Part shown: piece by piece, positions 1 to 64,000 of the stretch
Layout: the number at the start of each line of letters is the position of its first letter
How positions within the stretch are numbered: position 1 is the first letter of the stretch
From: Microbacterium sp. ProA8
GTDB lineage: Bacteria; Actinomycetota; Actinomycetes; Actinomycetales; Microbacteriaceae
Direction of reading: 5' to 3'
DNA: 64,000 nt
NCBI RefSeq assembly: GCF_039905635.1
Contig: NZ_CP157000.1
Location: 2,666,001 to 2,730,000 of the forward strand
Program-made: the position numbers and the translations under genes
The notes under the pieces: model-generated
The model's database searches: none
Seen by the model: the letters and a program-made list of their open reading frames with translations, nothing else
What the model was told of the DNA's origin: nothing

Positions 1-245
1 ACGTTGATCGTCACGGGCACGTCGGTGTGGATGCCCTGGTAGGTGATCGCGGTGTTCTTCGCGAGGATCGTGATGCCCTTTTCGCGCTCGAGGTCGTTCG
101 AGTCCATCGCGCGCTCCTCCATGTGCTCGTGAGAGCCGAAGGAGCCGGTCTGGCGCAGCATCGCGTCGACGAGGGTGGTCTTGCCGTGGTCGACGTGAGC
201 GACGATAGCCACGTTGCGGAGGTCCGGACGGAGGGCGCGCGCCAT
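1..245 (-). CDS. typA: TypA/BipA ribosome-associated GTPase, N-terminal part
   Basis: This is the 5' end of a translational GTPase running off the left edge; about 81 codons are visible. The start is [20 protein letters not shown], followed by the P-loop AHVDHGKTT and the switch region [17 protein letters not shown], in which ITILAKNTA is typical of TypA/BipA rather than EF-G or LepA. The family binds 70S ribosomes and helps 50S assembly and growth under cold or other stress. It faces away from the window, with a strong terminator of the neighbouring ABC gene just upstream of its start. The family call is firm; the C-terminal domains are not visible. Confidence 0.93.
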
Positions 246-263
246 GAGGGAATCCTTGAAAAG

Positions 264-299
264 AGAATGGGGATGCCGGAGTGCCGGCATCCCCATTCT
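264..299 (-). terminator. Hairpin terminator with GGATGCC word pair
   Basis: Perfect 16-bp inverted repeat (264-279 with 284-299) around a 4-base loop, followed on the minus strand by a short T-rich stretch (CTCTTTTC). It lies 38 bases beyond the stop of the double ATPase, so it should end that transcript before typA. Each arm contains GGATGCCGG, the word found in other terminators of this window. Confidence 0.85.
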
Positions 300-336
300 A
301 TTGGGCGCTCCTGTGTGTCGCCTTTCGGCGGTCGCG

Positions 337-2097
337 TCAGTCCTCCAGGCCTGCGGCGAGGAGCGCCGCGCGCGCCTCGCGGCGCACCCGCTGCTCTTCG
401 GGATCCGGCACCGGGATGGCGGCGATCAGGCGGCGGGTGTAGTCCTCGCGCGGTGCGCGCAGGATCTGGCCCGTCGCGCCCTGCTCGACGATCTTCCCGT
501 GGTGCATCACGATGATGCGGTCGGCGAGCGAGTCGACGACGGCGAGGTCGTGGCTGATGAACAGGCACGCGAAGCCGAGGTCGGCCTGCAGCCGGCGCAG
601 GAGCTGGAGCACGGTGGCTTGCACCGACACGTCCAGCGCCGACGTGGGCTCGTCGGCGATCAGCAGCTTCGGCTGCAGCGCCAGGGCGCGGGCGATGCCG
701 ACACGCTGCTTCTGGCCGCCCGAGAGCTCGTGCGGGTACCGGTTGCGGTACGAGCGGGGCAGCTCGACGGAATCGAGCAGGTCCTGCACCTTCATGTCGA
801 GGTCGCGGCCCTTCGCCACGTTCGCCAGCAACATCGGCTCGCCGATCGACTGGCCGATCGGCAGGCGCGGGTTCAGCGACGATGACGGGTCCTGGAAGAC
901 GATGCCGACGTCCTTGTGCACCCGGTGCAGCAGACGGCGGTCGGCCTTGGAGATGTCGTGACCGACCACCTCGGCCCGCCCATCCGCGATCGGCAGGAGC
1001 CCGATGGCGGCGCGACCGACGGTCGTCTTGCCCGAGCCGGACTCGCCGACCAGGCCGGTGACCTCGCCCGGGAAGATCGAGAACGTCGCGTGCTCCACCG
1101 CCCGGAACGCGGGGACGCGCCCGCGCTTCGGGTAGTCGATCGCGACGTCGGCGAAGTCGAGCACCGGCGCGCCCAGGCCCTTGCGGCGCTCGGCGTCCTC
1201 GCGGGCCGCGACATCCGCCAGACGGATCACCGACGTGTCGCCCGCGAGCGCCGCCGTCGTGTCGATCGACTCGCCGGCCGCATCGCCGATGCGCGGCACG
1301 GCCGCGAGCAGCTGCTTCGTGTACGGGTGCTGCGGGGCGTTGAACACGCCGCCGACGGTGCCGCGCTCGACGATCTCGCCCTTGCGCATCACCACGATGT
1401 CGTCGGCGAGGTCGGCCACGACGCCCATGTCATGCGTGATGAGCAGGATCGCGGAGTCCAGCCGGTGACGCAGGTCGCGCATGAGATCGAGGATCTCGGC
1501 CTGCACGGTGACATCGAGCGCCGTCGTCGGCTCGTCGGCGATGAGCAGCTGAGGATCGCACGAGATCGACTGCGCGATCATGGCGCGCTGCCGCTGGCCG
1601 CCCGACAGCTGGTGCGGGTAGGAGTTGAACGCCTTGAGGGGGTCGGGCAGCTCGACCATGTCGAGCAGCTCGAGCGCGCGCGTGCGCGCCTCGCTCGGCG
1701 TCATTCCGCGGTGGTTGCGCAGCGTCTCGATGATCTGGAAGCCGACGGTGAACACCGGGTTCAGCGCCGTCATCGGCTCCTGGAAGATCACGGCGATGTC
1801 GCGACCGCGCACGCGGCGCAGGTCGTCCTTGCGCAGGCCCAGGATCTCCCGCCCGCCGAGCTTGACGCTTCCGGTGACGCGGGCGTTGTTCGGGAGCAGT
1901 CCGAGCATCGCCATCGAGCTCGCGCTCTTGCCGGAGCCCGACTCACCCACGATGGCGAGCGCCTTTCCGGAGCTCACGGTGTAGTCGAGCTTCTTGGCCG
2001 CGGGAACCCAGTAATTGTCGACGGCGAAGTCGACGGACAGGCCGCTCACTTCCAGCAGCGGGCTGCCGGATGCCGGGGACGTCGGGAACTCGTTCAT
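337..2097 (-). CDS. Fused double ATPase of a dipeptide/oligopeptide ABC importer (DppD-DppF type)
   Basis: A 586-residue protein with two complete ABC ATPase domains in one chain. Domain 1 has Walker [11 protein letters not shown] near residue 52, signature [13 protein letters not shown] and Walker [13 protein letters not shown]. Domain 2 has [11 protein letters not shown] near residue 354, signature [13 protein letters not shown] and [12 protein letters not shown]. Each half ends with a peptide-importer C-terminal region ([26 protein letters not shown]). It should power the permeases at 2756-5445 fed by the binding protein at 5605-7380. It is separated from them by an opposite-strand gene at 2136-2741, so it probably has its own promoter. 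An AAGGACC ribosome site precedes the ATG. Substrate is inferred from family only. Confidence 0.92.
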
Positions 2098-2135
2098 TGG
2101 ATGGTCCTTGTGGGATCGTTGGAGACAATGGGGGG

Positions 2136-2741
2136 GTGACCGACCAGGCGATCCGCATCGACTCCCGCTTCAACCGCATCGCGGCCATCATCGTCTGGAG
2201 TCTTGCGGCGCTCGCAGTGATCACCGCCGTGTGGAGCTCGGATCCGAGGCTGGCGTGGGTGTACGCCGGCGCCCCGCTCGCCGCTCTCCTCGGCTGGGCC
2301 GCGTTGTGGCGACCGTGCGTCATCGTTTCGGAGCATGGCGTGCGCATCGAGAACGTCAGCCACGACGTCGACATCCCGTGGGCGGCCCTGGTGCACGTGG
2401 AGACCGCCCGAGCGCTGACGCTGCATACGCCGTCGGGAGGCTTCACGGCGTGGTCCGCGCCGGCTCCCGGCTACTTCACCACCATGATGGGCAACACCAG
2501 AGCACGCCGTGAGGCGCGAGCCGCGGGAGGCGATGCTCGTCCGAGCGACCGCATGGGCACCGACTCGGGCAACGCGGCCGTCGTGGTGCGCGAGACCTGG
2601 CGCCGGCGCCTCGACGCCGGTCAGGTCCCGCTCGGCGTCGCCGGCGAGACGCCGGTGAAGCGCCAGTGGCACGTGCTGCTCATCGCGGCGTGCGTCGTGC
2701 TCGCGATGGTGTCCGTCGCGCTGATCGTCGCCACGGGCTGA
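2136..2741 (+). CDS. Membrane-anchored PH-domain (bPH2-like) protein
   Basis: A 201-residue protein. I chose the GTG at 2136, which has GGAGA about ten bases upstream and gives MTDQAIRIDSRFNRI. Two hydrophobic segments lie near residues 14-32 and 39-57, then a segment beginning CVIVSEHGVRIEN that looks like a bacterial PH fold, and a C-terminal membrane segment (HVLLIAACVVLAMVSVALIV). Such proteins are common in actinobacteria and have no assigned function. It lies opposite to the importer genes: 38 bases divergent from the ATPase and 14 bases convergent with the second permease. The fold call comes from resemblance only. Confidence 0.7.
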   Translation: MTDQAIRIDSRFNRIAAIIVWSLAALAVITAVWSSDPRLAWVYAGAPLAALLGWAALWRPCVIVSEHGVRIENVSHDVDIPWAALVHVETARALTLHTPSGGFTAWSAPAPGYFTTMMGNTRARREARAAGGDARPSDRMGTDSGNAAVVVRETWRRRLDAGQVPLGVAGETPVKRQWHVLLIAACVVLAMVSVALIVATG

Positions 2742-2755
2742 GAGCCCGGCGCGCA

Positions 2756-3910
2756 TCATGCGCCACGTCCCGGGTCGGGCGCGATCTCCTCGTCGAGGAC
2801 GTCGTCGGCACGCTCGCTCGTGACGCCCGACACGTTGGTGCCGCCGCCGGCGGTGACCAGGGCGCCCTCGGGCACGTCGACGGTCGTCCCGCCGACCAGC
2901 ACGGCGTCCTGAGGCAGCTCCTTGACCTTGCGGAAGACCACGCGCTTCTGGCGCGGATCGAACGCATCGCGCAGTCCGTCTCCGACGAAGTTGACGAGCA
3001 GCGACAGGATCACGATGAAGAACGCCGGCCACCAGAACAGCCACGGGCGGGTCTGGAACGCCGACTCGTTCGCCGAGATCAGCAGGCCCAGCGACACGTC
3101 GGGAGAACGCACGCCGTAGCCGAGGAACGACAGGGACGTCTCCAGGATGACCGCGGCGGCGATCAGCAGCGTCGTGGCCACGATCACCACGCCGATGGCG
3201 TTCGGCAGGATGTGCTTGAAGATGATGCGCGCGTCGGAGGCACCCGCCACCCGCGCCGCTTCCACGAACTCCCGCTCGCGCAGCGTGAGGAACTCCGCGC
3301 GGACCAGTCGTGCGATGCCGGTCCAGGCGACGAAGCCGAGGAAGACGGCGAGGAGGACCGGCCCGAGGCCGCCGACCGCCGAACCGACGACCGCGCCGAT
3401 GACGATCACCGGGATCACGATGACGATGTCGGTCAGTCGCATCAGCACGGAATCGACCCAGCCGCGGTAGTAGCCCGCGAGTGCGCCGACCACCACGCCG
3501 AGGAAGGCGCCGATGATGCCGATCGTGAACATGATGTACGACGAGTTCACGAGGCCGCGCATGACCATCGCGAAGTAGTCCTTGCCGACGGTGCTCTGCC
3601 CGAACGGGTGGTCGCCCAGCGAGAACGGGAAGAGCGTCAGGGTCGGCAGGCCGCTGTTCGTGATCGGGATCAGCTGCTCGTAGCTCCACTTCCACCAGCC
3701 CGGGATCGGGCCGATGCCCGTCGCCGAGACGGCGAAGCCGACGATGAGGATGAACAGGATCGCGCTGATGACGGCCGGCTTGTGGGCCAGGAACCGACGG
3801 AGGGTGAGGCGTCCCTGGCTGACGCCGCGCTCATCCGCCGTCTGGACGTGCACACCGCCGTCGGAGGGCGATGAGGGGGGCTCGAGGCTCGGATCGATCG
3901 GGATGGACAT
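2756..3910 (-). CDS. ABC importer permease, DppC/OppC type
   Basis: A 384-residue integral membrane permease. The N-terminal tail (residues 1-40) is hydrophilic, then RRFLAHKPAVISAILFILIV begins the N-terminal OppC-like domain, and the BPD transport domain carries the ATPase-coupling loop around EFVEAARVAGASDARIIFKH. The C-terminal tail after LRDAFDPRQK is extended (about 70 residues, acidic). The start codon overlaps the stop of the upstream permease gene by one base (TAATG), indicating translational coupling. It should form a heterodimer with that permease in the cytoplasmic membrane. Confidence 0.9.
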   Translation of the reverse strand: MSIPIDPSLEPPSSPSDGGVHVQTADERGVSQGRLTLRRFLAHKPAVISAILFILIVGFAVSATGIGPIPGWWKWSYEQLIPITNSGLPTLTLFPFSLGDHPFGQSTVGKDYFAMVMRGLVNSSYIMFTIGIIGAFLGVVVGALAGYYRGWVDSVLMRLTDIVIVIPVIVIGAVVGSAVGGLGPVLLAVFLGFVAWTGIARLVRAEFLTLREREFVEAARVAGASDARIIFKHILPNAIGVVIVATTLLIAAAVILETSLSFLGYGVRSPDVSLGLLISANESAFQTRPWLFWWPAFFIVILSLLVNFVGDGLRDAFDPRQKRVVFRKVKELPQDAVLVGGTTVDVPEGALVTAGGGTNVSGVTSERADDVLDEEIAPDPGRGA

Positions 3911-5445
3911 TACTTGACCCTCACTCTCGGGTCGATCGCCGAGTACGCAAGATCGGCGAGGAAGTTGAACGTGATGGCGAACACCGCGATGACGACGAAG
4001 TACGCCATGACGGGGTTCGGGTCGGCGTGCTGCAGACCCTGGTTGAACAGCGCACCCATTCCGCTGAACGCGAAGATGCGCTCGGTGATGATCGCGCCGC
4101 CGATGAGGGCGCCCACATCCGCCGCGACGATCGTCGTGATCGGGATCAGCGAGTTGCGGAACGCGTGCCGGACGACGACCGTGCGCTCGGGCAGGCCCTT
4201 CGCCCGTGCCGTCCGGATGTAGTCCTGGTTGAGCGTCTCGAGCATGCCGCCGCGGGAGTACCGCGTGTATGCCGCGAACGAGATCAGCATGAGGCTGATC
4301 GTCGGCAGCAGCAGGTGCGTGAACGTGTCGATGCTCTGGATCCACCAGTCGCCGACCAGGTTGGGCGTCTCCGAGCCGATCGTGGCGATCGGGCGGCCGT
4401 TCACCTTCGGGTTGGTGACGTAGTCGTACCAGCGCGACATGAACTGATTCAGGATGATGACGCCCATGCCGAGCGCGCCCGTGAGGATGCCGATGCGGAT
4501 GGCCTGGCCCTTGTCGTATTCGCCGAGGAGCCAGCCCGCGACCGCGCCGATGAGGCTCGCGCCGACGAACAGTCCGAACACGCCCCAGCCGTTGAGCGAG
4601 TCGAGGAAGGGCTGCAGCACGAAGAACGCCACGACGAGCACGATCACGGTGGCCCCGGCGGTGCGCCACGCGTAGCGCGCACGGGGACCGGCGATGATCA
4701 GCACCATCGCCGCGCCGAAGGCCGCGATGAGCAGGGGCGTGAGCACGGGGCCGAGGGACGGGTGGAGGAACCACGCCGTCACGCTCATGCCGTAGAGCAT
4801 GGCTCCGGTCGTCACGACCGACGCGGCGAAGACGACCAGGCGACGCTGCCTGTTCCCGCCGATGATCGCTTGCCAGAAGACACCCGAGATCAGACTGAGC
4901 GCGATGATCCAGGGCCAGGTGAAGACCGGACTGACGAGCCAGTTGTTGAAGCCCAGGGCCAGGAAGACCTTGAGGAGGACGCCCATCACGAAGGAGGGCA
5001 GCGAGTAGAAGAGGAAGCTGGCGAACGTGAACGAGTAGTCGACCGCGCTGTACTGACGCAGGGCCGAGACGATCCCGACGAGGATGCCGAGCACGATGGC
5101 GAGGATGGTCGACGCCGTCACGAGCTGGAGCGTCGCGCCCATCGCGCGTGCCAGCAGCACGGTGACCGGCTGGTTCTGGATGGTCACGCCGAGGTCGCAG
5201 CCGCCGAACGGGATGACGCAGCGCGCGGCGCCGAGAAGCCAGTTGAACCAGCGGACGGGAATGGGCTGGTCGAGGTTCAGCCAGTCGGTCCGCTGCGCGA
5301 TGAGCTGATCTTTGTTCGGGCTGTTGGAGGCGTACAGGTCCTCGAGGGGGTCTCGGGCGAGCGCCACGAGGGTGTACATCAGGAAGGATGCGGCGATGAG
5401 GATCAGGATCGAGACCCCGATGCGCCGCAGAACGAAGCTAAGCAC
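3910..5445 (-). CDS. ABC importer permease, DppB/OppB type, enlarged
   Basis: A 511-residue permease starting at GTG 5445. The N-terminus (VLRRIGVSILILIAASFLMY), the periplasmic loop and the C-terminal coupling loop (DYIRTARAKGLPERTVVV) are typical of DppB. Typical DppB proteins have about 310-340 residues. The extra length is a block around residues 175-340 with roughly five additional hydrophobic segments, placed between the third typical helix and the conserved TFTHLLLPTISLML region. I see no frameshift, so the insertion is part of the protein. It follows the binding-protein gene after 159 bases that include a hairpin, so binding protein and permeases may be expressed at different levels. 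Confidence 0.88.
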   Translation of the reverse strand: MLSFVLRRIGVSILILIAASFLMYTLVALARDPLEDLYASNSPNKDQLIAQRTDWLNLDQPIPVRWFNWLLGAARCVIPFGGCDLGVTIQNQPVTVLLARAMGATLQLVTASTILAIVLGILVGIVSALRQYSAVDYSFTFASFLFYSLPSFVMGVLLKVFLALGFNNWLVSPVFTWPWIIALSLISGVFWQAIIGGNRQRRLVVFAASVVTTGAMLYGMSVTAWFLHPSLGPVLTPLLIAAFGAAMVLIIAGPRARYAWRTAGATVIVLVVAFFVLQPFLDSLNGWGVFGLFVGASLIGAVAGWLLGEYDKGQAIRIGILTGALGMGVIILNQFMSRWYDYVTNPKVNGRPIATIGSETPNLVGDWWIQSIDTFTHLLLPTISLMLISFAAYTRYSRGGMLETLNQDYIRTARAKGLPERTVVVRHAFRNSLIPITTIVAADVGALIGGAIITERIFAFSGMGALFNQGLQHADPNPVMAYFVVIAVFAITFNFLADLAYSAIDPRVRVK

Positions 5446-5544
5446 TGGGCTGGCCCTTCATGCAGAAAAGGTAGCAGGCGGTGGATGACGGGAGCAGAGC
5501 CCCGCTGTCGCCTCCGCCGGCTGTGGACGGGAAGACACACGCAC

Positions 5545-5575
5545 GGGGCGCCGGGCTGCAAAGACCCGACGCCCC
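5545..5575 (-). terminator. Intra-operon hairpin after the binding-protein gene
   Basis: Inverted repeat 5545-5555 with 5565-5575 (11 bp, one mismatch, 9-base loop), 29 bases after the stop of the binding-protein gene. The T tract is weak, so it may be a partial terminator or a 3' stabilising hairpin. Such hairpins often keep binding-protein mRNA in excess over permease mRNA. Confidence 0.55.
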
Positions 5576-5604
5576 ATGGCGTGGTGTTTCAGCTAGTCAC
5601 CGAA

Positions 5605-7380
5605 TTACTCGGAGACCGTCCACTCCCAGAAGTTCCAGAACACACCCGTCTGGTTGCCCATGAAGGTGATGCCCTCGATGTTGTCGGCGTGCGCCTCGAG
5701 ACCGGGGCCCTGGAAGAGCGGCAGACCGTAGGCGTCGGCGAACAGCTCCGCGTCGGCCTCGACAGTCAGCTCGTCGATCGCGTCGGTGTCGAGCGTCGTC
5801 GGGATCTCGCGGGCGATCTCGTCCACGCGCTCGTTGGCGTACTTGTTGTAGTTGCTGCCACCGAAGCTGGCGAAGATCTGCGGGATGGTGCCGTTGCCGA
5901 CACCGGGCGAGATCCAGCCGAAGATGACCGCGTCGTAGATGTCCGACCCGAGCTGAGCGCTCCAGTCCTCACGGCCCACATCCTCGACCACGAAGCCGGC
6001 CTCTGCAGCCGAAGCCTGGATGGCCTCGAACGCCGCGACGCGGTTGGGGTTGTTGATGTTGTACATGAGGCGGATCGTCGGGGTCGCACCGGCGAGGAGC
6101 TCCTTGGCGCCCTCGATGTCGACCTCGGCGTACGCGTCCGAACCGTTGCTGGCGACGGCGTCCTCGTACGAGGACTGCGCCGGGATGAACAGCTGCGAGT
6201 TGAGAACCTCGGCCTCGGGGTTGACCGGCTTGATCAGCGTGTCGACGAGCTGCTGACGCGGGATCGTCTTGAGGAAGGCCTCACGCACGCTCTGCTCGGC
6301 CAGCGGGCCGGCGAACGTCAGGTCGAGGTGGTCGTAGTTCAGCGCGTCGCCCTGGAGCACCTCGACGCCGTCGATGCCCTGGAGCGCCGTCAGCGTGTCA
6401 CCGCTCGCCTGCGGGGCGATGACATCGACCTCGCCGTTCTGGAGGGCGGTCACCTGGGCCTGCGCGTCACCGATGAAGCGGATGACGAGCTCGGAGAACT
6501 GCGGCTTCAGGTCGCCCTGGTACTTGTCGTTGAGCTTCAGCGTCATGGACTGCGTGGGCTCGTACGAGTCGATGATGAACGGGCCGCTCGCGAGGTACAG
6601 CGAGGGGTCCTCCGGCAGCGACGTCATGTCGAAGCCGGTGTTCCAGAAGTCAGCCGCGGCCTTGAGCGTCTCGTTGACCGGGGCCGGAGCCGCAGCGTCA
6701 CCGCGGGGGCTGGTCAGGATCGTGTCGACGAGCTCGGCCTGGTCGACGCCCGCCTTCTCGGAGACGACGTGGACCGGCTGGTCGATGAGGTCCTGGATGT
6801 TCCAGTCGACGAAGGGCTCGTCGTACTCGAGCGTGAGGGAGAGCTTGTCGTCGGCCACCTCGGTGATGGTCGAGGTGATGAGGCCCTCGGTGCTGCCTGC
6901 GTACTGGAAGTACTGGGTGCCGCTGATCGGCTCACCCGACTCGGGGTCGAGCGTCGCGTCGTCGAAGATGCCCGACGTGACCGCCCAGCCGAAGACCAGG
7001 TCGTCGGTCGTGATGGGCTCGCCGTCCGACCACTGCAGTCCCTCGTTGAGGGTGTACTGGACCTGAAGCGGATCCTCGCTGACGACCTCCATCGTGCCGA
7101 ACGACTCGTCGGGGACGACCTCGTAGCTGTCGCTCACGTAGTAGAACGTCGACTTGGTCAGGTAGTCGACCTTGCCGTTGATGTCGAGGTTGCCGTTGAC
7201 GCTGTTCGAGTTCGTGCCCGTGAACTCGTTCGTCTCAGCAACGGTCACCGCGGTGTCGGTGGCCGTGGGGGCCTCCTCCTCCGGCGGGGTCGTCGAGCAG
7301 CCGGCAAGGACCAACGCGGTCACTCCGACGCCCGCCGCGACTCCGAGTGCGCGCTTGCGCCACGTCGTCTTGTCAGACAC
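5605..7380 (-). CDS. Extracellular solute-binding lipoprotein, family 5 (peptide/nickel type)
   Basis: A 591-residue binding protein. The GTG at 7380 has an AGGAGA ribosome site and gives a lipoprotein signal peptide with positive residues (KTTWRKRA), a hydrophobic core and lipobox LVLAGC. The SBP family 5 body follows, with typical passages such as LNEGLQWSDGEPITTDDLVF and FLKTIPRQQLVDTL. It should sit lipid-anchored on the outer face of the membrane and deliver peptides or related solutes to the permeases just downstream. The start codon position is supported by the signal peptide. Substrate cannot be read from sequence. Confidence 0.92.
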   Translation of the reverse strand: MSDKTTWRKRALGVAAGVGVTALVLAGCSTTPPEEEAPTATDTAVTVAETNEFTGTNSNSVNGNLDINGKVDYLTKSTFYYVSDSYEVVPDESFGTMEVVSEDPLQVQYTLNEGLQWSDGEPITTDDLVFGWAVTSGIFDDATLDPESGEPISGTQYFQYAGSTEGLITSTITEVADDKLSLTLEYDEPFVDWNIQDLIDQPVHVVSEKAGVDQAELVDTILTSPRGDAAAPAPVNETLKAAADFWNTGFDMTSLPEDPSLYLASGPFIIDSYEPTQSMTLKLNDKYQGDLKPQFSELVIRFIGDAQAQVTALQNGEVDVIAPQASGDTLTALQGIDGVEVLQGDALNYDHLDLTFAGPLAEQSVREAFLKTIPRQQLVDTLIKPVNPEAEVLNSQLFIPAQSSYEDAVASNGSDAYAEVDIEGAKELLAGATPTIRLMYNINNPNRVAAFEAIQASAAEAGFVVEDVGREDWSAQLGSDIYDAVIFGWISPGVGNGTIPQIFASFGGSNYNKYANERVDEIAREIPTTLDTDAIDELTVEADAELFADAYGLPLFQGPGLEAHADNIEGITFMGNQTGVFWNFWEWTVSE

Positions 7381-7543: not shown

Positions 7544-8413
7544 ATGACGCCGCTCACCCCTGCCGCTGATAGGGGGAAATCCACTACGCTGTCTCGGCTC
7601 GATCCGTTCCAGCGCCGACGACTGACGTGGGAAGTGTGGATCGTGCTGGCGATCACCGTCGGCCAGTCGGCGCTGTACTCCGTGCTCTCGCTGGTGCGCA
7701 AGCTCGTCGCACCGATCCCGCTGGGCTCTCAGCAGACTCAGGTGAACCCCCCGCGCGACGCGCAGGCGATCTGGGACATCGTGTACCAGCTGCTGTCCGT
7801 CTTCTTCGCGCTCGCACTGGTGGCGCTCGTCGTCTACCTGCTCTGGGAGCCCGGAGGCAACGCGCTGCGGCGCATCGGCCTGGACTTCACGCGGTTCGGC
7901 GGCGACCTCGGCCGCGGCATCCTGCTCACCGCCGTCATCGGCCTGCCGGGGCTCGCGCTCTATGCGGCGGGCCGGGCGCTGGGCATCACGGTCGCCGTCG
8001 TCGCGTCGCCCCTGGACGCCGCCTGGTGGACGGTGCCGCTCCTGCTGCTGTCGGCGCTGCGGGCCGGGCTCACCGAAGAGGTCATCTTCATCGGCTACCT
8101 GTTCGACAGGCTCCGCCGGCTGGGCTGGAACGACTGGTCGATCATCCTGACGACGGCGGCCCTGCGCGGCGCGTACCACGCCTATCAGGGCTTCGGCGCG
8201 ATCGTCGGCAACTTCGCGATGGGCGTGGTCTTCGGCTGGTGCTACCGCCGATGGGGGCGCGTCATGCCCCTCGTCATCGCGCACACCCTCCTCGACATCG
8301 TCGCGTTCGTGGGCTATCCCCTCGCTGCCGCGCTGTGGCCCGAGATCTTCGCCCCGATACCTCAGCCGACCCCGACGCCCGCACCGACCCCGGAGCCGAC
8401 TCCCGCGACATGA
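7544..8413 (+). CDS. CPBP-family intramembrane metalloprotease homologue
   Basis: A 289-residue membrane protein of the CPBP (CAAX protease/bacteriocin self-protection) family. Motif 1 reads EEVIFIGYLFDR, motif 2 region LRGAYHAYQG, and motif 3 VIAHTLLD. The usual arginine of the EExxxR motif is replaced by isoleucine, a variant I recall from other actinobacterial members. About eight hydrophobic segments precede a Pro/Thr-rich cytoplasmic or external tail of about 20 residues (PTPTPAPTPEPTPAT). It is monocistronic and convergent with gcvP, sharing a bidirectional terminator. Whether it is an active protease is uncertain. Confidence 0.82.
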   Translation: MTPLTPAADRGKSTTLSRLDPFQRRRLTWEVWIVLAITVGQSALYSVLSLVRKLVAPIPLGSQQTQVNPPRDAQAIWDIVYQLLSVFFALALVALVVYLLWEPGGNALRRIGLDFTRFGGDLGRGILLTAVIGLPGLALYAAGRALGITVAVVASPLDAAWWTVPLLLLSALRAGLTEEVIFIGYLFDRLRRLGWNDWSIILTTAALRGAYHAYQGFGAIVGNFAMGVVFGWCYRRWGRVMPLVIAHTLLDIVAFVGYPLAAALWPEIFAPIPQPTPTPAPTPEPTPAT

Positions 8414-8415: not shown

Positions 8416-8450
8416 GCGATGGGATGCCGGGGGCACCGGCATCCCATCGC
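8416..8450. terminator. Bidirectional terminator with GGATGCC word pair
   Basis: Perfect 15-bp inverted repeat (8416-8430 with 8436-8450), 5-base loop, lying between the convergent CPBP gene and gcvP. The arms contain GGATGCCGG and CCGGCATCC. Confidence 0.85.
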
Positions 8451-21005: not shown

Positions 21006-22376
21006 ATGCCTGCCGTCAACATCACCCTCCAGCCGCCGCCCGCCGCCGCGGAGCGGACTCCGACCGATGCGTCGGTGGACCACGCGATCCAGGCGATCAT
21101 CGCGGGCGCGTCGACCGGCGAGACCTGCAACACCGACCTGGCCGCCGGCCCGTGGGACTTCGACACGCGCCCCGGCTACGGACCCGGCTCGTCGATGGGA
21201 GACGTCATCCCCACCGGCTCCCCCCGCCAGGGAGAGCTGCCCCGTGAGTACCGCGAGGCGTCCGAGGCCGAGCTCGCCGATCGCGTCCGCGCCGCCAAGG
21301 CGACGCTCGGCGACCGCGTCGTCGTGCTCGGCCACTTCTACCAGCGGGAAGAGGTCGTCGTCCACGCCGACTACGTGGGCGACTCGTTCCAGCTCGCCAA
21401 CGCGGCCCTCGAGCATCCGGATGCCGAAGCCATCGTGTTCTGCGGCGTGCACTTCATGGCCGAGACCGCCGATCTGCTGTCGCGCCCCGAGCAGGCCGTG
21501 ATCCTGCCCAACCTCGCCGCCGGCTGCTCGATGGCCGACATGGCCGACATCGACCAGGTCGAGGACTGCTGGGAGCAGCTCGCCGAGGTGTACGGCGACA
21601 TGGACGCCACGGATGCCGACGGCCTCGTGCCCGTCATCCCCGTCACGTACATGAACTCCTCCGCCGCGATCAAGGGCTTCGTCGGTCGCCACGGCGGCAT
21701 CGTGTGCACGTCGTCGAACGCGCGCACCGTCCTCGAATGGGCCTTCCAGCGTGGACGCCGGGTGCTGTTCTTCCCCGACCAGCACCTCGGGCGCAACACC
21801 GCGAAGGCGATGGGCGTCCCCCTCGAGCAGATGCCGATGTGGAATCCGCGCAAGCACCTGGGCGGGGCATCCGTCGACGCGATCGAGAGCGCCCGCGTCA
21901 TCCTCTGGCACGGCTTCTGCTCGGTGCACCGGCGCTTCTCGGTCGACCAGATCGAGAAGGCGCGCGCCGAGCACCCCGGTGTGCGGGTCATCGTGCACCC
22001 GGAGTGCCCGATGGAGGTCGTGGACGCCGCCGACGAGGCCGGCTCGACCGACTACATCCGCAAGGCCATCGCCGGCGCGACCGAGCCCACGACGTTCGCC
22101 ATCGGCACCGAGGTGAACCTCGTGCAGCGCCTCGCCGCCCAGTACCCGCAGCACGAGATCTTCTGCCTCGACCCGGTCGTGTGCCCCTGCTCGACGATGT
22201 ACCGCATCCACCCGGGCTACCTCGCCTGGGTGCTCGAGGGGCTCGTGGCGGGCGAGGTGCGCAACCGCATCGAGGTGCCGCAGGACGTGGCCGATCCCGC
22301 CCGTCTGGCACTGGAGCGGATGCTGGCGGCCAAGCCCCCCGCCGCACCCGCGGCCGCCTGGGAGCACGCGTCATGA
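21006..22376 (+). CDS. nadA: Quinolinate synthase
   Basis: A 456-residue quinolinate synthase, which condenses iminoaspartate with dihydroxyacetone phosphate using a [4Fe-4S] cluster. Candidate cluster cysteines sit in FCGVHFMAE, HPECPMEVV and DPVVCPCSTM. Other landmarks are GHFYQREEVV, VTYMNSSAAIKG and FFPDQHLGRNT. It is the long actinobacterial form with an N-terminal extension of about 80 residues. The ATG at 21006 follows GGAGCG, and the gene overlaps nadB by four bases. Confidence 0.97.
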   Translation: MPAVNITLQPPPAAAERTPTDASVDHAIQAIIAGASTGETCNTDLAAGPWDFDTRPGYGPGSSMGDVIPTGSPRQGELPREYREASEAELADRVRAAKATLGDRVVVLGHFYQREEVVVHADYVGDSFQLANAALEHPDAEAIVFCGVHFMAETADLLSRPEQAVILPNLAAGCSMADMADIDQVEDCWEQLAEVYGDMDATDADGLVPVIPVTYMNSSAAIKGFVGRHGGIVCTSSNARTVLEWAFQRGRRVLFFPDQHLGRNTAKAMGVPLEQMPMWNPRKHLGGASVDAIESARVILWHGFCSVHRRFSVDQIEKARAEHPGVRVIVHPECPMEVVDAADEAGSTDYIRKAIAGATEPTTFAIGTEVNLVQRLAAQYPQHEIFCLDPVVCPCSTMYRIHPGYLAWVLEGLVAGEVRNRIEVPQDVADPARLALERMLAAKPPAAPAAAWEHAS

Positions 22377-24148
22377 CCGCGGCTGCGACTCGGCCGCACG
22401 CGATCGTCGTCGGGTCGGGGATCGCCGGACTCCTCACCGCGCTGCACGCCGTCGCGCACGGCTGCCGCGTGACGCTCGTCACCAAGGACGTGCTCGAGCA
22501 CGCCAACACCCGCTACGCCCAGGGCGGGATCGCCGGCGTCATGTTCGACGACGACCGCGCCCAGGACCACGTGCGCGACACGCTCGTCGCGGGCGCCGGG
22601 CTCAGCGATCCCGACGCCGTCCAGGTGCTGGTCGACGAGGGCCCGGCCCGCATCCGCGAGCTCATCGCCCTCGGCGTCGCCTTCGACCGCGACGCCGGCG
22701 GCGGGTTCGTGAAGGGTCTCGAGGCCGCGCATTCGTATCCGCGGATCCTGCACGCGGGCGGCGACGCCACCGGGACGGCGATCGAGAAGGCGCTGGTCGC
22801 CGGGCTGCGCGTGAGCGACGTCACCGTCATCGAGCACGCCTTCCTGCTCGGCCTGGTGCTGGACGAGGTCGGCGCGCCCGCGGCGGGCGGGCGACGGGTC
22901 ACCGGAGTGGAGCTGCTGATCGGCGAGACGGATGCCGGCCCCGACGGCCGCGCGACCCTCGCGGCCGACGCGGTCGTGCTGGCCACGGGCGGCGCCGGCG
23001 AGCTGTACGCGCACTCGACCAACCCCGAGGTGGCCACGGGCGACGGCATCGCCGCGGCGATCCGCGCCGGCGCCGACGTCGCCGACCTGGAGTTCTTCCA
23101 GTTCCACCCGACGGTGCTGGAAGGCAAGGCTGACGCCGCCGGACTGGCGATCGGAAGATCGTTCCTGGTGTCGGAGGCCGTACGCGGCGAGGGCGCGACC
23201 CTGGTCGACGAGCACGGGCGCCGGTTCGTCTTCGACGCCCATCCCGACGGCGAGCTGGCGCCTCGCGACGTCGTCGCCCGGGCGATCGCGCAGCAGATGG
23301 AGGCTCAGGACGGGCGCCCGGTGCTCCTCGACGCGACGCACATCCACTCCTCGGACGCCGACGAGCGCGCGGCGTTCCTCGCGCGGCGCTTCCCGACGAT
23401 CGACCGCGCCGTGCGCGAGCGCGGCCTCGACTGGGCGCGCGAGCCGATCCCGGTGACGCCGGCCGCCCACTACCTGATGGGCGGTGTCGCCACCGACCTG
23501 TTCGGCCGCACGTCCCTGCCGGGTCTCTACGCGGTGGGTGAGGTCGCCCGCACCGGCGTACACGGCGCGAACCGTCTGGCGTCGAACTCGCTGCTCGAGG
23601 GCGCTGTGTTCGGCGCGCGTGCCGGAGATGCGATCGCGGCGGATGCGGCATCCGGTTCGTGGCCGGCATCCGCGGTCCAGGACGCAGCCGTCACCGCGGG
23701 ACTCCAGTCCACCGGCGCCGCGGCATCCGCGCGCGATACGCCTGGACCGACCACGCCGGGCTTCTCGCGGCGAGCGCTGCAGGAGCTCATGTGGGAGCAC
23801 GTGGGACTGGTCCGCGACGAGGAGGGACTCGGGCGCGCGGCATCCGTCCTCGCGCACTGGCGTGCCGAATCGCGCACCCCGGTCGCCGAGCACGGATACG
23901 AGGACGAGAATCTGCTGCTCGTCGCGGGGGAGGTCGTCGCCGCGGCCCGCGCCCGCCGCGAGTCCGTCGGCGCGCACTTCCGCGCCGACGCACCGGTCGA
24001 GGATTCCGCTCCCGCCCCGGCCCGCAGAACTCCACGGATCGACGCGCCAGCCCGCCTCGCGGCCGCGGGCGCTGCAGATCGGCGCCAGGATCTGTGGAGT
24101 TCTGCAGATACCCCGGCGCCCGCCGTCGAGGAGGTGGTCGCTTGCTGA
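22373..24148 (+). CDS. nadB: L-aspartate oxidase
   Basis: A 591-residue FAD enzyme that oxidises L-aspartate to iminoaspartate for NadA. FAD-binding motif VVGSGIAGLLTALHA at the N-terminus, then NTRYAQGGIAGVM, FFQFHPTVL, PAAHYLMGGVATDL and GANRLASNSLLEG. The C-terminal helical domain ends in a poorly conserved Ala/Pro-rich tail of about 45 residues that contains a 17-bp inverted repeat at DNA level (24024-24105). The word GCATCC (Ala-Ser) occurs repeatedly in its 3' third. It overlaps nadC by seven bases. Confidence 0.96.
   Translation: MTAAATRPHAIVVGSGIAGLLTALHAVAHGCRVTLVTKDVLEHANTRYAQGGIAGVMFDDDRAQDHVRDTLVAGAGLSDPDAVQVLVDEGPARIRELIALGVAFDRDAGGGFVKGLEAAHSYPRILHAGGDATGTAIEKALVAGLRVSDVTVIEHAFLLGLVLDEVGAPAAGGRRVTGVELLIGETDAGPDGRATLAADAVVLATGGAGELYAHSTNPEVATGDGIAAAIRAGADVADLEFFQFHPTVLEGKADAAGLAIGRSFLVSEAVRGEGATLVDEHGRRFVFDAHPDGELAPRDVVARAIAQQMEAQDGRPVLLDATHIHSSDADERAAFLARRFPTIDRAVRERGLDWAREPIPVTPAAHYLMGGVATDLFGRTSLPGLYAVGEVARTGVHGANRLASNSLLEGAVFGARAGDAIAADAASGSWPASAVQDAAVTAGLQSTGAAASARDTPGPTTPGFSRRALQELMWEHVGLVRDEEGLGRAASVLAHWRAESRTPVAEHGYEDENLLLVAGEVVAAARARRESVGAHFRADAPVEDSAPAPARRTPRIDAPARLAAAGAADRRQDLWSSADTPAPAVEEVVAC
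24024..24105. repeat. Inverted repeat inside the nadB 3' end
   Basis: GCAGAACTCCACGGATC (24024-24040) pairs with GATCTGTGGAGTTCTGC (24089-24105), 16 of 17 positions, with a 48-base centre. It is translated as part of the variable NadB tail. It resembles a REP-like intergenic element captured by a reading frame; I see no second copy in the window. Confidence 0.6.
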
Positions 24149-31236: not shown

Positions 31237-31277
31237 GGCGGATGCCCCACCCCTCGACAAGGGGTGGGGCATCCGCC
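31237..31277 (+). terminator. Terminator with GGATGCC word pair after the MFS gene
   Basis: Perfect 18-bp inverted repeat (31237-31254 with 31260-31277) with loop CGACA, followed by ATTCTGGTTG. Arms contain CGGATGCCCC and GGGGCATCCG. It separates the MFS gene from the next gene on the same strand. Confidence 0.85.
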
Positions 31278-48738: not shown

Positions 48739-49770
48739 ATGCCCGTCGCCACCCCGGAACAGTACGCCGACATGCTGGACCGCGCGAAGGCCGGTGGCTT
48801 CGCGTATCCCGCCATCAACGCCGCCAGCTCGCAGTCGGTCAACGCCGTCCTGCAGGGCCTCACCGAGGCCGGATCCGACGGCATCATCCAGGTCACCACC
48901 GGCGGCGCCGACTACTTCGCCGGCCACACCGTCAAGGCCCGCGCGACCGGCGCCCTCGCCTTCGCCGCCTACGTCCACGAGGTCGCCAAGAGCTACCCCA
49001 TCACGGTCGCCCTCCACACCGACCACTGCCCCAAGCCGGCGCTCGAGGACTTCGTGCTGCCGCTCATCAAGGCATCGGAGCAGGTCGTCGCCGACGGCGG
49101 CAACCCCATCTTCCAGTCGCACATGTGGGACGGCTCGGCCGTGCCGCTCGCCGAGAACATCGAGATCGCGAAGGAGCTGCTCCCCCGCATCAAGGCGATC
49201 AACGCCATCCTCGAGGTAGAGATCGGCGTCGTCGGCGGCGAAGAGGACGGCGTCCAGCACGAGGGCTCGAACGAGGCTCTCTACACGACGACCGCCGACG
49301 TCTCGCAGGTCGTCGAAGCACTCGGCCTCGGCGACCAGGGCCGCTGGATCGCGGCCCTCACGTTCGGCAACGTGCACGGCGTCTACAAGCCCGGCAACGT
49401 GAAGCTGCGCCCCGAGCTGCTCGGCGAGATCCAGGAGGGCATCGCCGCGCAGTTCGGCACCGGCCCGAAGCCTCTCGACCTCGTCTTCCACGGCGGCAGC
49501 GGCTCGACCGACGAGGAGATCGCGCTGGCCGTGGCCAACGGCGTCGTGAAGATGAACATCGACACCGACACGCAGTACGCCTTCACCCGCTCGGTCGCCG
49601 GCTTCATGTTCCAGAACTACGACGGCGTGCTGAAGGTCGACGGCGAGGTGGGCAACAAGAAGGCCTACGACCCGCGTGCGTGGGGCAAGATCGCCGAGTC
49701 GGCGATGGCGGCCCGCGTCGTCGAGGCGACGCGGCAGCTCGGTTCGGCGGGCAAGAGCCTCGCCGCGTAA
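48739..49770 (+). CDS. fba: Class II fructose-bisphosphate aldolase
   Basis: A 343-residue zinc aldolase of glycolysis and gluconeogenesis. Landmarks: GGFAYPAINAASSQSVNAVL, zinc His in ALHTDHCPKP, VEIGVVGGEEDGV, TFGNVHGVYKP and LVFHGGSGSTDEEI. ATG 48739 follows AGGAGC. It contains none of the GGATGCC words despite their frequency around it, consistent with strong selection for optimal codons in a highly expressed gene. Confidence 0.97.
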   Translation: MPVATPEQYADMLDRAKAGGFAYPAINAASSQSVNAVLQGLTEAGSDGIIQVTTGGADYFAGHTVKARATGALAFAAYVHEVAKSYPITVALHTDHCPKPALEDFVLPLIKASEQVVADGGNPIFQSHMWDGSAVPLAENIEIAKELLPRIKAINAILEVEIGVVGGEEDGVQHEGSNEALYTTTADVSQVVEALGLGDQGRWIAALTFGNVHGVYKPGNVKLRPELLGEIQEGIAAQFGTGPKPLDLVFHGGSGSTDEEIALAVANGVVKMNIDTDTQYAFTRSVAGFMFQNYDGVLKVDGEVGNKKAYDPRAWGKIAESAMAARVVEATRQLGSAGKSLAA

Positions 49771-49802: not shown

Positions 49803-49851
49803 CGGATGCCCCGGCACCCGCCCTGCGAGGGGCTGGGCGCCGGGGCATCCG
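49803..49851. terminator. Bidirectional terminator with GGATGCC word pair
   Basis: Inverted repeat CGGATGCCCCGGC (49803-49815) with GCCGGGGCATCCG (49839-49851), a perfect 13-bp outer stem; inner bases can extend it with mismatches. It lies between convergent fba and the MOSC gene. Confidence 0.75.
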
Positions 49852-53797: not shown

Positions 53798-55153
53798 ATG
53801 ACGACCTTCCAGCCCGTCGCCGTCCCCGGCGAGCCCCCGCCCGCCGACTCGGTGCGCCCGCGGGACTCCACCGCGCAGGCTCCGACCTCGGTCGCCCGCC
53901 TCAACGACACGATCCGCGGCTTCGTGCAGACGTGGGGGTCGGTGTGGGTCGAGGGCGAGATCACGGCGTTCAACCTGCGCGGCGGCAACGTGTTCGGGCG
54001 CCTCAAGGACCTCGCCGGCGACGCCACGATCTCGTTCCGCATCTGGTCGTCCACGCGCGACCGGCTGCCCGGCGACCTCAAGGTCGGCGACCACGTGATC
54101 GCCTGCGTGAAGGCGGACTACTTCGTCAAGAACGGCGACTTCGGCTTCGGCGTCTCGGCGATGCGTCATGTCGGGCTCGGCGACCAGCTCGAGCGTCTCG
54201 AGCGGCTGCGGGTGCAGCTGCGAGCCGAGGGGCTGTTCGACCCGTCGCGCAAGAACGCCCTGCCGTTCCTTCCGCGCCTGATCGGCCTGATCACCGGCGA
54301 GAATTCGGATGCCGAGAAGGACGTGCACCGCAACGCCGAGCTGCGCTGGCCCCAGGTGCGGTTCCAGACCAAGTACGCCGCCGTCCAGGGCGACCGCTGT
54401 GTGCCCGAGACGATCGCGGCACTGAAGGCGCTGGATGCCGCGCCCGACGTCGACGTCATCATCATCGCGCGCGGCGGCGGCGACCCGCAGACCCTGCTCG
54501 GCTTCAGCGACGAGCGCCTGCTGCGGGCGGTGGCCGCGGCATCCACCCCCGTCGTCAGCGCCATCGGCCACGAGAACGACCATCCGCTGCTCGACGACGT
54601 CGCCGACCTCCGCGCCTCGACGCCGACGGATGCCGCCAAGCGCGTCGTCCCGGATGTCGCGGAGCAGCGCGCCATCGTCGGTCAGCTGCGCTCCCGCATG
54701 AACATGCGGCTGACGCAGCGGATCTCGCACGACATCGCGCAGCTCGAGCAGCTCAGGTCGCGTCCGGTGCTGCGTGCGCCCGAGACGCTCCTCACGACGC
54801 GCGCCCACGAGGTGGAGCTGCTCGCGGCGCGGGGGCGCGACCGCGTGGGCCGCTCGCTCCAGCTGCACGAGCGTCGCACCGCCGAGCTCCGTGCGACGCT
54901 GCGCGCGCTCTCGCCGGCGTCCACCCTCGCCCGGGGCTACGCCATCGCGCACCTGACCGACGGCGTCATCGTGCGCGACGCGGCGCAGGCTCCGGCATCC
55001 ACTCCCGTCATCGTCACCGTAGGGCGCGGATCGTTCGCCGCGCACTCCGACGGCGAGATCGCCGAACAGCCGTCCCCCGCCGCCGAGCCTGCGGGGGAAG
55101 ATGCCGCGCAGGCCGATTCGCCGGGGCGCGGGGCCCCCTCGGCCGCGAACTAA
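53798..55153 (+). CDS. xseA: Exodeoxyribonuclease VII large subunit
   Basis: A 451-residue subunit: N-terminal OB fold (IRGFVQTWGSVWVEGEITAF, GRLKDLAGDATISF), catalytic region with ENSDAEKDVHRN and IIIARGGGDPQTLLGF, and a long C-terminal coiled coil for small-subunit binding. AGGACC precedes ATG 53798. Degrades single-stranded DNA with XseB. First gene of a run of four coupled genes. Confidence 0.96.
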   Translation: MTTFQPVAVPGEPPPADSVRPRDSTAQAPTSVARLNDTIRGFVQTWGSVWVEGEITAFNLRGGNVFGRLKDLAGDATISFRIWSSTRDRLPGDLKVGDHVIACVKADYFVKNGDFGFGVSAMRHVGLGDQLERLERLRVQLRAEGLFDPSRKNALPFLPRLIGLITGENSDAEKDVHRNAELRWPQVRFQTKYAAVQGDRCVPETIAALKALDAAPDVDVIIIARGGGDPQTLLGFSDERLLRAVAAASTPVVSAIGHENDHPLLDDVADLRASTPTDAAKRVVPDVAEQRAIVGQLRSRMNMRLTQRISHDIAQLEQLRSRPVLRAPETLLTTRAHEVELLAARGRDRVGRSLQLHERRTAELRATLRALSPASTLARGYAIAHLTDGVIVRDAAQAPASTPVIVTVGRGSFAAHSDGEIAEQPSPAAEPAGEDAAQADSPGRGAPSAAN

Positions 55154-58183: not shown

Positions 58184-58189
58184 CGGGAC

Positions 58190-61163: not shown

Positions 61164-61270
61164 GTCTCGCCTGCCTCCCCTGTGCGCCGAACGATTCCCC
61201 TCCATCCATGGTGACAGACCGACCGCGTCACAGGAGCCACGGGCGATGAGACTCTTCTCATGCTGATCCG

Positions 61271-61311: not shown

Positions 61312-61333
61312 CGTCAGCGCATCCGACGGTCTC

Positions 61334-62689
61334 TCAGGCGAGTTCTCCCGCCTCGAGCAGGTCGGTGACGAGCGCGGCGATGGCGGAGCGCTCCGAGCGC
61401 ACGAGCGTCACGTGCCCGAACAGCGCGTGCCCCTTCAAGGTCTCGATCACCGACGCGACACCGTCGTGGCGGCCGACGCGCAGGTTGTCGCGCTGGCCCA
61501 CATCGTGGGTGAGCACGACGCGTGAGCCCTGACCGATCCGGCTCAGCACCGTCAGCAGCACGTTGCGTTCGAGCGACTGCGCCTCGTCCACGATCACGAA
61601 CGCGTCGTGCAGCGAGCGTCCGCGGATGTGCGTCAGGGGCAGCACCTCCAGTAGGCCCCGCTCGATCACCTCTTCGAGCACGTTGCTCGACACGACCGAG
61701 CCGAGAGTGTCGAACACCGCCTGACCCCAGGGGTTCATCTTCTCCTGCTGGTCCCCCGGCAGGTATCCGAGCTCTTGCCCGCCGACGGCGAACAGCGGCC
61801 GGAACACGATGATCTTGCGCTGCTGCTGCCGTTCCAGCACCGCCTCCAGCGCTGCGCAGAGCGCCAGCGCGGACTTGCCTGTGCCGGCCCGGCCGCCGAG
61901 CGAGATGATGCCCACCTCCGGGTCGAGGAGCAGGTCGATGGCGATGCGCTGTTCGGCAGAGCGTCCGTGCAGCCCGAACACGTCCCGATCGCCGCGGACG
62001 AGGCGGAACTCGCCGTCGCCGATGACGCGCCCGAGCGCCGATCCCCGCTCGGAGTGGACGATCAGCCCGGTGTTGACCGGGAGCCCGCGGACGTCCTCGC
62101 TGACGGCGACTTCGCTCTCGTAGAGGTCGCTGATGTCGTCGCCCGACACGTCGATCTCGGAGATGCCGGTCCAGCCGGAGTCGACGGCCTGCTCCGCGAG
62201 GTACTCCTCCGCGCTGATGCCGAGCGAGGCGGCCTTGACGCGCATGGGCAGGTCCTTCGAGACGACGGTGACCTCCTGCCCGTCCCTCGCGATATTCATC
62301 GCGATGGCCAGGATGCGACTGTCGTTGTCGCCGAGTCGCATGCCCGACGGCAGCACCGTGGGGTCGGTGTTGTTGAGCTCGACGCGCAGCGTCCCGCCCT
62401 CGCCGACCGGCACCGGGAAGTCGAGGCGGCCGTGCTCGACGCGAAGCTCGTCGAGGTGGCGCAGCGCCTGCCGGGCGAAGTAGCCGATCTCGGGATCGTG
62501 CCGCTTGCCTTCGAGCTCCGTGATCACCACGACGGGGATCACGACGCTGTGTTCGGCGAAACGGAAGAATGCCCGTGGATCACTGAGCAGCACCGATGTG
62601 TCGAGGACGTAGGTGCGCAGATCCTGATCGGAGTCCGCGACCTCCTCGAGATGCCGACTGCGCTGCTCGTGTGGTGCTCGTGTGGTCAC
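61334..62689 (-). CDS. PIN-PhoH ATPase/nuclease fusion protein
   Basis: A 451-residue protein of the PhoH2/PhoAT type. N-terminal PIN ribonuclease domain ([26 protein letters not shown]) and C-terminal PhoH P-loop domain (Walker [40 protein letters not shown]). Start GTG 62689. PhoH2 proteins act as RNA helicase/nucleases in actinobacteria and sometimes pair with small antitoxins, but I find no small partner gene upstream. Confidence 0.9.
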
Positions 62690-62945
62690 AACCCACTCCC
62701 GCCCCGGGTGTTTCACCCGGCAGTCACGAGTCGACCAGGGTAGCGAGTCGAAGATCGTGAAGTCGCGATCCGTGAGGCCGACTCGACCGGGCTCTTTGCC
62801 CGATGCGCTCACGCTACGTCCGTGCGCCGACATTGCGCGCGCCCGACACGCAGGAAACATGTGTCGATTCGATGAACGGATGCTGTGGCCCCTCGCCTCG
62901 CCGACGGCTCCGGCATCGCGAGGCGATGTCAGCCGGCGAGCGTCG
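62690..62945. other. Intergenic region without recognised feature
   Basis: 256 bases between the PhoH gene start and the aminotransferase stop. I see no convincing reading frame, hairpin, or repeat. It must hold the promoter of the PhoH gene. Confidence 0.5.
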
Positions 62946-64000
62946 TCACCAGACCCGCGCGGAAGAGAACGCGGCGAGCGCGTCCCCGAACAGCCGGAGC
63001 GTGTCTGCGCCCGTGCCGACGTGCGGGGCGACGCGGATGCGGCCCGCCCGCGTGGTCACGGTGAGGCCATGGTTCGCGAGCGACGCGGCGAGCGGTGCGG
63101 CGTCCTGCGGAGCGGGTTCGAGTGTGACGATCCCCGCGCGGTGCTCAGGCTCGCGCGGCGTCACCACCGGCACCTCATAGCGGTCGGCGAAGAACATCAC
63201 GTCCGTCGCGCGTGCCGACAGCGCCGACTCGATCTGCGTGACGCCGACGTCGGCGACCTCGCGGAGCGCCGTCGCCAACCGCGCGGTCGCGAGCGTGTCG
63301 GGCCCGGAGACCGAGAATGCCTGGGCCGACGCAGAGGGCGCCGGCACGGTGTCCACCGGCAGGTCGCCGTCGACGCCGCGGAATCCCGAGAGCACGGGCG
63401 CGATGCGCTCGAGCGCGCGCTCTCCGAACCACGAGAAGCCGGTCCCGCGTCCGGCGCGGAGCCACTTGTACCCGTGGCCGCAGACGACGTCGGCGGCCAG
63501 ATAATCCGCCTCGACCATGCCGAAGCCCTGGATGGCATCGACGATGAGCAGACGATCGCCGATGACCTCGCGCAGAGCGGACAGGTCGGTGCGGTAGCCC
63601 GTGCGGAAGTCGACGAGACTCACCGCCACGGCCCGGGTGTCGTCGGAGAGAGCAGAGCGCACCGCGTCCGGCGTCATGAATCCGTGCGACGGCTCCACCC
63701 ACTGCAGCTGGAGTGATCCGAAGGCGTCCGAGGCGCGGGTGGCGGCCACCGTGAGGCTGGGGAACTCGCCCCGGCTCATCATCAGTCCGCCTGCCAGTCC
63801 GTAGACGGCGTGCATCAGTCCGTGCGTGGTGGACGGCTGCAGCACCACGTGCTCGGCATCCGTGCCGATCAGCTCGGCGACCAGCTCGCGCGCCTCGCGG
63901 ACGTGGTCGGCCACCAGCTCGATGCTCGTGCGGCGCCCCGAGCCGAGCAGCTCGGTGTCTCCCTGCGCCTCGCTGCGGACGGCAGGAGAGAGCGGGCCGA
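62946..64000 (-). CDS. Class V PLP aminotransferase, 3' part
   Basis: The gene runs off the right edge; at least 351 residues are present. PLP-lysine region [14 protein letters not shown], preceded by [13 protein letters not shown], and [16 protein letters not shown] before the C-terminal domain. The visible N-terminal end ([19 protein letters not shown]) is close to the true start, which usually lies 15-20 residues earlier. Could be a kynureninase-like or cysteine desulfurase-like enzyme; motif details favour neither. Confidence 0.85.

Follow-up and report, generated by a model that had tools for sequence, protein, structure and literature searches.

GGATGCC, an abundant word of Microbacterium sp. 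ProA8 with related words across the Microbacteriaceae, as a candidate DNA uptake sequence

What keeps one seven-letter word abundant throughout a bacterial genome? The question is raised by a stretch of 64,000 nucleotides from Microbacterium sp. ProA8 (contig NZ_CP157000.1, positions 2,666,001 to 2,730,000; this whole stretch is called the window below), in which GGATGCC and its reverse complement GGCATCC recur on both strands. The data presented here suggest that the word is probably a self-recognition word in natural transformation, akin to a DNA uptake sequence (DUS).

Enrichment of GGATGCC in genes and between them

Counting on both strands yielded 92 exact copies of the word in the window (45 on the + strand and 47 on the − strand), whereas 100 shuffles that preserved dinucleotides averaged 16.9 copies and never exceeded 27. 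The first-pass annotation of this DNA had put the count at about 80 and the expectation at about 15; the over-representation that it described stands, with both figures revised upward. According to a simple gene caller, 74 of the copies lie within genes, 16 between genes, and 2 across a gene edge. The whole genome, a single contig of 4,373,776 bases, holds 6041 copies (3036 + 3005, i.e., about 1.4/kb) with a slightly even spacing (coefficient of variation 0.92), and the string of its letters in reverse order was counted 388 times.

We weighed coding constraint against selection on DNA in a 464-kb sample that consisted of the window and 20 further stretches, each of 20 kb, spread around the genome, which is the sample meant below wherever counts for this genome are given. 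Here, genes were called with our own simple codon-score caller, the genic expectation was obtained by shuffling synonymous codons (not codon pairs) within each gene, and the intergenic expectation was derived from trinucleotides. In genes, GGATGCC was the top over-represented 7-mer by z-score and exceeded the codon-shuffled null 3.2-fold (519 observed, 164 expected). All six frames were enriched, from GGC-ATC as the weakest (147 versus 104) to G-GCA-TCC as the strongest (128 versus 6.7, up to 19-fold). In intergenic DNA, where the first-pass annotation had asked whether any enrichment would be left, the word was again the top 7-mer (114 versus 16 expected, 7-fold), at a density of 1.80/kb versus 1.30/kb in genes. 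Neither of the two outcomes named there as refuting the observation, counts at the level of a codon-shuffled null and a lack of intergenic excess, was thus seen. The remark that GAT and GCA are rare codons here, yet common within the word, was borne out by codon counts in context: GAT supplies 196 of the 305 Asp codons in the context G_GCC, as compared to 13–17% when the next codon is not GCC, and GCA supplies 128 of the 184 Ala codons in the context G_TCC, as compared to 4–7% when the next codon is not TCC. With copies in six frames, on both strands, and between genes, the enrichment reflects selection or drive that acts on the DNA and not on the protein, as had been suspected from the window.

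The word content also varied with codon usage. Genes with the strongest codon bias carried 0.89 copies/kb (observed/expected 2.5), and the second codon-score quartile (scores of 26–32) was the richest class, with 1.75/kb and an observed/expected ratio of 3.6. On the GGATGCC strand, the extended consensus reads (G/A)ACGGATGCCGCG, with CGGATGCCG as its core and weak outer positions, and GACGGATGCC was observed 81 times versus 4.0 expected. Intergenic DNA of the same sample was also several-fold enriched in a further set of words that overlap one another, around GCTCAACGAC. One sampled stretch includes 5.7 kb (L011:11261-16946) with 61% G+C, versus 70% for the genome, and zero copies of GGATGCC, and this segment resembles acquired DNA.

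Paired copies and features of the window

Intergenic copies were frequently found in oriented pairs. Among the 114 intergenic copies, neighbors at most 45 bases apart formed 15 pairs in the order GGATGCC...GGCATCC and a single pair in the reverse order (four under a looser count that let a pair touch a gene), while random placement gave 1.7 expected pairs of the former kind and a maximum of 7 in 2000 trials. Eleven of the 15 pairs begin 8–33 bases past the stop codon of a + strand gene, and another follows a − strand stop at a distance of 44 bases; three are located away from gene ends, and eight lie between convergent genes. The four hairpins in the window displayed RNA fold z-scores of −6 to −8 (Table 1). 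These oriented intergenic pairs resemble terminator hairpins and may function as such. They are also akin to the paired uptake sequences of Neisseria, for which the excerpted text of PMC1852404 describes a +− order that is far more common than −+ and an enrichment between convergent genes; the pairs of this genome likewise favor that order and often lie between convergent genes.

Of the individual genes in the window, the one that had been named nadB scores as nadB, and four word sites reported within it are real, at 23647, 23665, 23722, and 23839, the second having been placed one base too low, at 23664. The reported blank in fba was recovered as well, and would follow from the lower word content of strongly codon-biased genes. 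Two stretches of importer genes, described as nearly devoid of the word, are indeed poor in it, at about one third of the window average, but not empty, with three copies in 2.1–8.4 kb and three in 14.4–20 kb.

Table 1. Positions of the word copies, hairpins, and genes discussed in the text (window coordinates unless the contig is named; the word is GGATGCC/GGCATCC; z, RNA fold z-score).
Feature	Position	Strand	Details
GGATGCC/GGCATCC, scattered copies	1..64000	.	92 counted
Intergenic hairpin, stem holding GGATGCCGG/CCGGCATCC	271..292	+	44 bases beyond stop of − strand gene 337-2097; −32.8 kcal/mol, z −8.0
Intergenic hairpin GGATGCCGG/CCGGCATCC, convergent genes	8422..8444	+	8 bases past stop of 7643-8413; −35.1 kcal/mol, z −6.7
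Intergenic hairpin, word in each arm of 18-bp stem	31240..31274	+	31 bases past stop of 29679-31208; −46.6 kcal/mol, z −7.7
Intergenic hairpin, word at stem base	49804..49850	+	33 bases past fba (48739-49770); −50.1 kcal/mol, z −6.1
nadB (L-aspartate oxidase)	22373..24148	+	5 word copies, 0.5 expected after codon shuffling
fba	48739..49770	+	zero word copies
xseA (exonuclease VII large subunit)	53798..55153	+	5 word copies, 0.17 expected
comEC	contig 2,230,047-2,232,227		adjoins comEA
comEA	contig 2,232,448-2,233,077		adjoins comEC

Related words in the family Microbacteriaceae

The comparison with related Microbacteriaceae that the first-pass annotation had proposed revealed related words in kin, sharing GGA and limited to the family. 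When 41 family genomes were searched de novo (with 40 to 464 kb taken from each and outstanding words judged from the top lists), a GGA-type word was outstanding in 26, in at least eight forms: GGATGCC or CGGATGC in 10 genomes, CGGATCC in 5, GGATGCT(G) in 3 (two of them weak), GGATGCG in 3, CAGGATC or CAGGATGC in 2, and CGGAACC(A), CGGATGG(C), and GGATGCCTC in 1 each. In three genomes (G079, G100, and G627), the word stood out among 8-mers without being the first 7-mer. The words that kin carry instead of GGATGCC, which we refer to as dialects, include CGGATCC, CGGAACCA, GGATGCTG, CGGATGGC, GGATGCG, and CAGGATC. No outstanding GGA-type word was seen in the other 15 of the 41 genomes, a few of which had about twofold GGATGCC. 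Dialect words were above the intergenic expectation in all 11 of 11 genomes, although the copies were few (2 to 23 per genome).

Across 199 family genomes, the GGATGCC count ranged from 82 to 7364. The codon-matched control word GCCGATG was counted in the same genomes, and the ratio of the two counts is hereafter called the GGATGCC index. Among 149 Microbacterium genomes, seven were rich in CGGATCC (4115–9980 copies, with at most 1674 in the other 142), and these same seven were poor in GGATGCC (434–1441), of which the other 142 held 507–9877 copies. GGATGCC was not enriched in three kin with other words (G164, G034, and G605). The CGGATCC dialect contains the palindrome GGATCC, which is most enriched with C before it or G after it. 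One genome (G126; L033, L034) was rich in two words at once, with 6046 copies of GGATGCC and 4111 of CGGATCC, and is possibly a genome in dialect transition; it is similar in this to Simonsiella muelleri, which carries two DUS dialects in one genome according to the excerpted text of PMC3630211.

The family limit was apparent in two wider samples. In 198 genomes of the order, CGGATGCC reached 1554–4093 copies in 13 of the 14 family genomes (313 in the remaining one, G164), and none of the 184 order genomes outside the family was rich in it, with at most about 0.16/kb, a background level. In 296 genomes of the phylum, all four family genomes were rich in CGGATGCCG (800–3084 copies) and no genome elsewhere was. 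Within the family, we placed the dialects on a tree of 60 leuS loci, after omitting 10 of 70 rows (a locus without comEA, or a short or odd one), with dialects assigned here and in the protein trees discussed below from the word density in about 3–23 kb per locus. On this tree, the CGGATCC dialect requires at least three changes, all three forced by well-supported branches. Among named leuS genes, those nearest to the leuS of this genome, with identities of up to 91%, belong to Microbacterium. Two leuS loci titled Planococcus sp. and Stenotrophomonas maltophilia (L088 and L089) are 85–87% identical to that of this Microbacterium and probably come from mislabeled or contaminated assemblies. In another genome (G045; L059-L061), the intergenic words CAGCATG, ACCAGCA, and TACTCGA are strongly enriched, which suggests an intergenic repeat family.

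Competence genes and the explanations of the word

Competence genes, for which a search had been suggested, are present in this genome: We found comEA and comEC (Table 1) as well as two Tad/Flp clusters. ComEC was matched in 195 of the 199 family genomes, and the four without a match are all in at least 80 contigs. The Tad locus beside topA encodes a TadA ATPase, a fused TadB/C, a DUF4244 Flp-type protein, and, in the places of TadE and TadG, two small proteins with no Pfam match. The other locus encodes TadA, TadB, TadC, a short Flp-like protein, two TadE-type pilins (one of them under the Pfam cut-off), and TadG. Matched on gene order rather than sequence, the topA-side locus corresponds to tad-2 of Micrococcus luteus and the other one to tad-1. 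In M. luteus, as described in the excerpted text of PMC4322843, deletion of each tad gene of both clusters left no transformation, except for one gene whose loss lowered it by a factor of more than 100, and cells without comEC were not transformed either. This genome thus resembles the Flp-pilus-dependent transformation system of that species in having two tad clusters in the same gene order together with comEA/comEC.

The presence of TadE2, a TadE-type pilin of tad-1, was loosely associated with the word. In family genomes of at least 2.4 Mb, the median GGATGCC index was 1.12 with TadE2 (n = 110) and 0.60 without it (n = 41; p = 1e-6, kinship ignored), and the median of the higher of the two word indices (GGATGCC or CGGATCC) was 1.22 versus 0.71, kinship again ignored. 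In this comparison, 8 genomes whose TadE2 match was weak or partial were omitted, as were 9 mixed genera at the genus level, and 36 unmatched genomes that were absent from the match listing were counted as lacking TadE2. A PilB or type IV pilus-type ATPase was rejected as the common element: It was matched strongly in G000, G063, and G016, and not in the word-rich G106, G057, G164, and G034. In G106, a mobile-looking stretch of primase/helicase type (L068:1157-6200) lies just downstream of tadC in tad-1, with the TadE2 match about 15 kb further on.

Of the options raised from the window alone (an uptake sequence, or the target of a DNA-binding or modifying enzyme), an uptake sequence is the one supported as the best fit, a choice that we infer from the density of the word, its hairpin pairs, the related dialects that share GGA, and the competence genes. 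A word that occurs about once per kilobase, is indifferent to frame and strand, is avoided under strong codon selection, is reused in hairpins, and has GGA variants in kin bears the signature of one favored by biased uptake and recombination. In the mechanism that we infer, a DNA-binding competence part at the cell surface, with a Tad/Flp minor pilin or ComEA as candidates, would bind the word, whereupon the word-bearing DNA would enter via ComEA/ComEC and be recombined. As word-bearing fragments would be favored in uptake, biased recombination would let copies build up at all sites where the protein can accept them, a proposal that could account for copies in all six frames and in intergenic DNA and for fewer copies in strongly codon-biased genes. 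Some copies would then be reused pairwise as terminator-like hairpins, and a change in specificity would lead to a slow rewriting of the genome into a new dialect. We lean toward a dialect-structured self-recognition word that is read by a Tad/Flp competence pilus, probably has an origin independent of that in Neisseriaceae and Pasteurellaceae, and would partition gene exchange among the species of one genus.

Several observations weigh against an uptake word of this kind. Intergenic hairpin pairs were present in only two of nine other GGATGCC genomes sampled (one in G106 and two in G149) and in none of the other seven, while none of four CGGATCC genomes had pairs in the corresponding order, and these showed seven pairs in the opposite order, for which the chance level was not computed. 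In this genome, genes with low codon scores are not poor in the word (observed/expected 3.45), and a depletion in atypical genes, looked for by codon score, was not found. The link between TadE2 and the word is weaker at the genus level (p = 0.006, kinship ignored). Six genomes are word-rich without a TadE2 match (G499, G557, G003, G019, G153, and G151), the first two of which contradict tad-1 as a strict requirement; G005 is rich on the CGGATCC index without such a match, and several genomes, G016, G576, and G584 among them, carry tad-1 with no outstanding word. Trees were built for ComEA, ComEC, and five tad-1 proteins as receptor candidates, and the CGGATCC group did not form one clade in those of ComEA, ComEC, TadE1, TadE2, TadG, or Flp. 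As each of these trees needs two or three dialect changes, as does leuS, none of the proteins is singled out as the specificity gene, and no obvious dialect-specific residues were seen in the tad-1 pilins. Six Microbacterium phages, finally, carry 106 copies of GGATGCC versus 65.3 after codon shuffling, a 1.62-fold excess that compares to 3.2-fold in the host genome and 1.12-fold for the control word in the same phages.

The chief rival, which we consider unlikely, is a word targeted by a DNA methyltransferase or by a repair or modification system and kept abundant by modification-linked drive. Such a target would be a short fixed word, the dialects could equal alternative specificities, and the origins of CGGATCC, at least three in number, would suit an exchange among a small set of specificities. 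GGATCC is, moreover, absent from the called genes of three of the six phages (Dismas, Musetta, and Quhwah; L190, L191, and L192; 41.6, 50, and 50 kb), where about 9–11 copies are expected in each; this likely reflects avoidance of a BamHI-type restriction site and suggests that GGATCC-cutting enzymes act on such phages. HIP1 of cyanobacteria, a palindromic word for which modification-linked drive has been suggested, is likewise short and very abundant, but GGATGCC is not palindromic, and here related, non-identical words replace one another. The motif in this genome is extended and asymmetric, restriction would be expected to reduce sites rather than to multiply them, and the hairpin pairs would be left without explanation. 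Nor do the data support an origin by deamination (C to T) of methylated GGACGCC: Its observed/expected ratio is 0.58 here versus 0.63, 0.52, and 0.69 in G164, G014, and G016, which are not enriched in GGATGCC, and this similar scarcity in unenriched kin argues against simple methyl-deamination; in the word-rich G057, GGACGCC is scarcer, at 0.22.

A site for a chromosome-handling protein, i.e., a Chi-like recombination signal, a segregation guide, or a nucleoid protein site, has in our judgment a smaller chance still. The genome-wide density, the slightly even spacing, and the family-specific words would suit it. Chi-like signals and segregation guides are, however, oriented, and no such polarity was seen here, neither in the balanced strand totals of the genome nor as a sign change when one half of the sampled stretches was set against the other (141/126 versus 150/129; origin not located), and oriented hairpin pairs past stop codons would not be expected of such a site. 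Codon-pair, amino-acid, or mutation-context bias alone appears very improbable. A general context bias does exist, as TCGGCGA too is above its codon-shuffled null (741 versus 432) and the excess in the phages of the genus points the same way, but the enrichment of GGATGCC is 3.2-fold in genes and up to 19-fold in one frame, spans all six frames, reaches 7-fold between genes, and is missing in kin with other words; codon-pair bias by itself was rejected on the codon-shuffled null and the codon counts in context. We give equally little credence to a spread of the word with terminator hairpins or as a mobile palindrome like the repetitive extragenic palindromes: The 15 hairpin pairs would agree with it, but 519 of the 638 copies are genic, with few of these closely paired, and pairs are missing in most of the word-rich kin sampled.

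Among known systems, the DUS of the Neisseriaceae form eight dialects with a common CTG core and reach up to 5918 copies in 2.4 Mb, according to the excerpted text of PMC3630211. The words described here are like them in a density of about one per kilobase or more, in lying on both strands and in both genic and intergenic DNA, and in forming dialects with a common core. They are unlike them in sharing GGA rather than CTG and in their hosts, Gram-positive Actinobacteria whose pili are of the Tad/Flp type and not the type IV pili that carry ComP. With the uptake signal sequences of the Pasteurellaceae, as excerpted from PMC1852404, they share a short core, a wider weak consensus, and, in this genome, pairs that resemble terminator hairpins; they differ in having at least eight word forms in one family. 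The term "uptake sequence" is absent from the main texts of PMC4322843 and PMC8467076. In the open-access literature, we found no paper that joins Microbacteriaceae with "uptake sequence"; open-access searches that paired Actinobacteria or Microbacterium with terms for uptake or competence gave no report of an uptake word in Actinobacteria among the matches listed, and a search for the bare words gave occurrences of the primer kind among the matches listed.

To our knowledge, word-gated DNA uptake is established only in Neisseriaceae and Pasteurellaceae. Both of these families are Gram-negative. If true, the finding of such a system in Gram-positive Actinobacteria would mean that an uptake-word system can evolve with a different pilus and a different cell envelope, and it would provide an independent replicate for the origin of dialects. 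It would furthermore predict the partners of gene exchange within a large bacterial family, and adding the word to DNA would become a practical rule for the transformation of genera that are hard to engineer.

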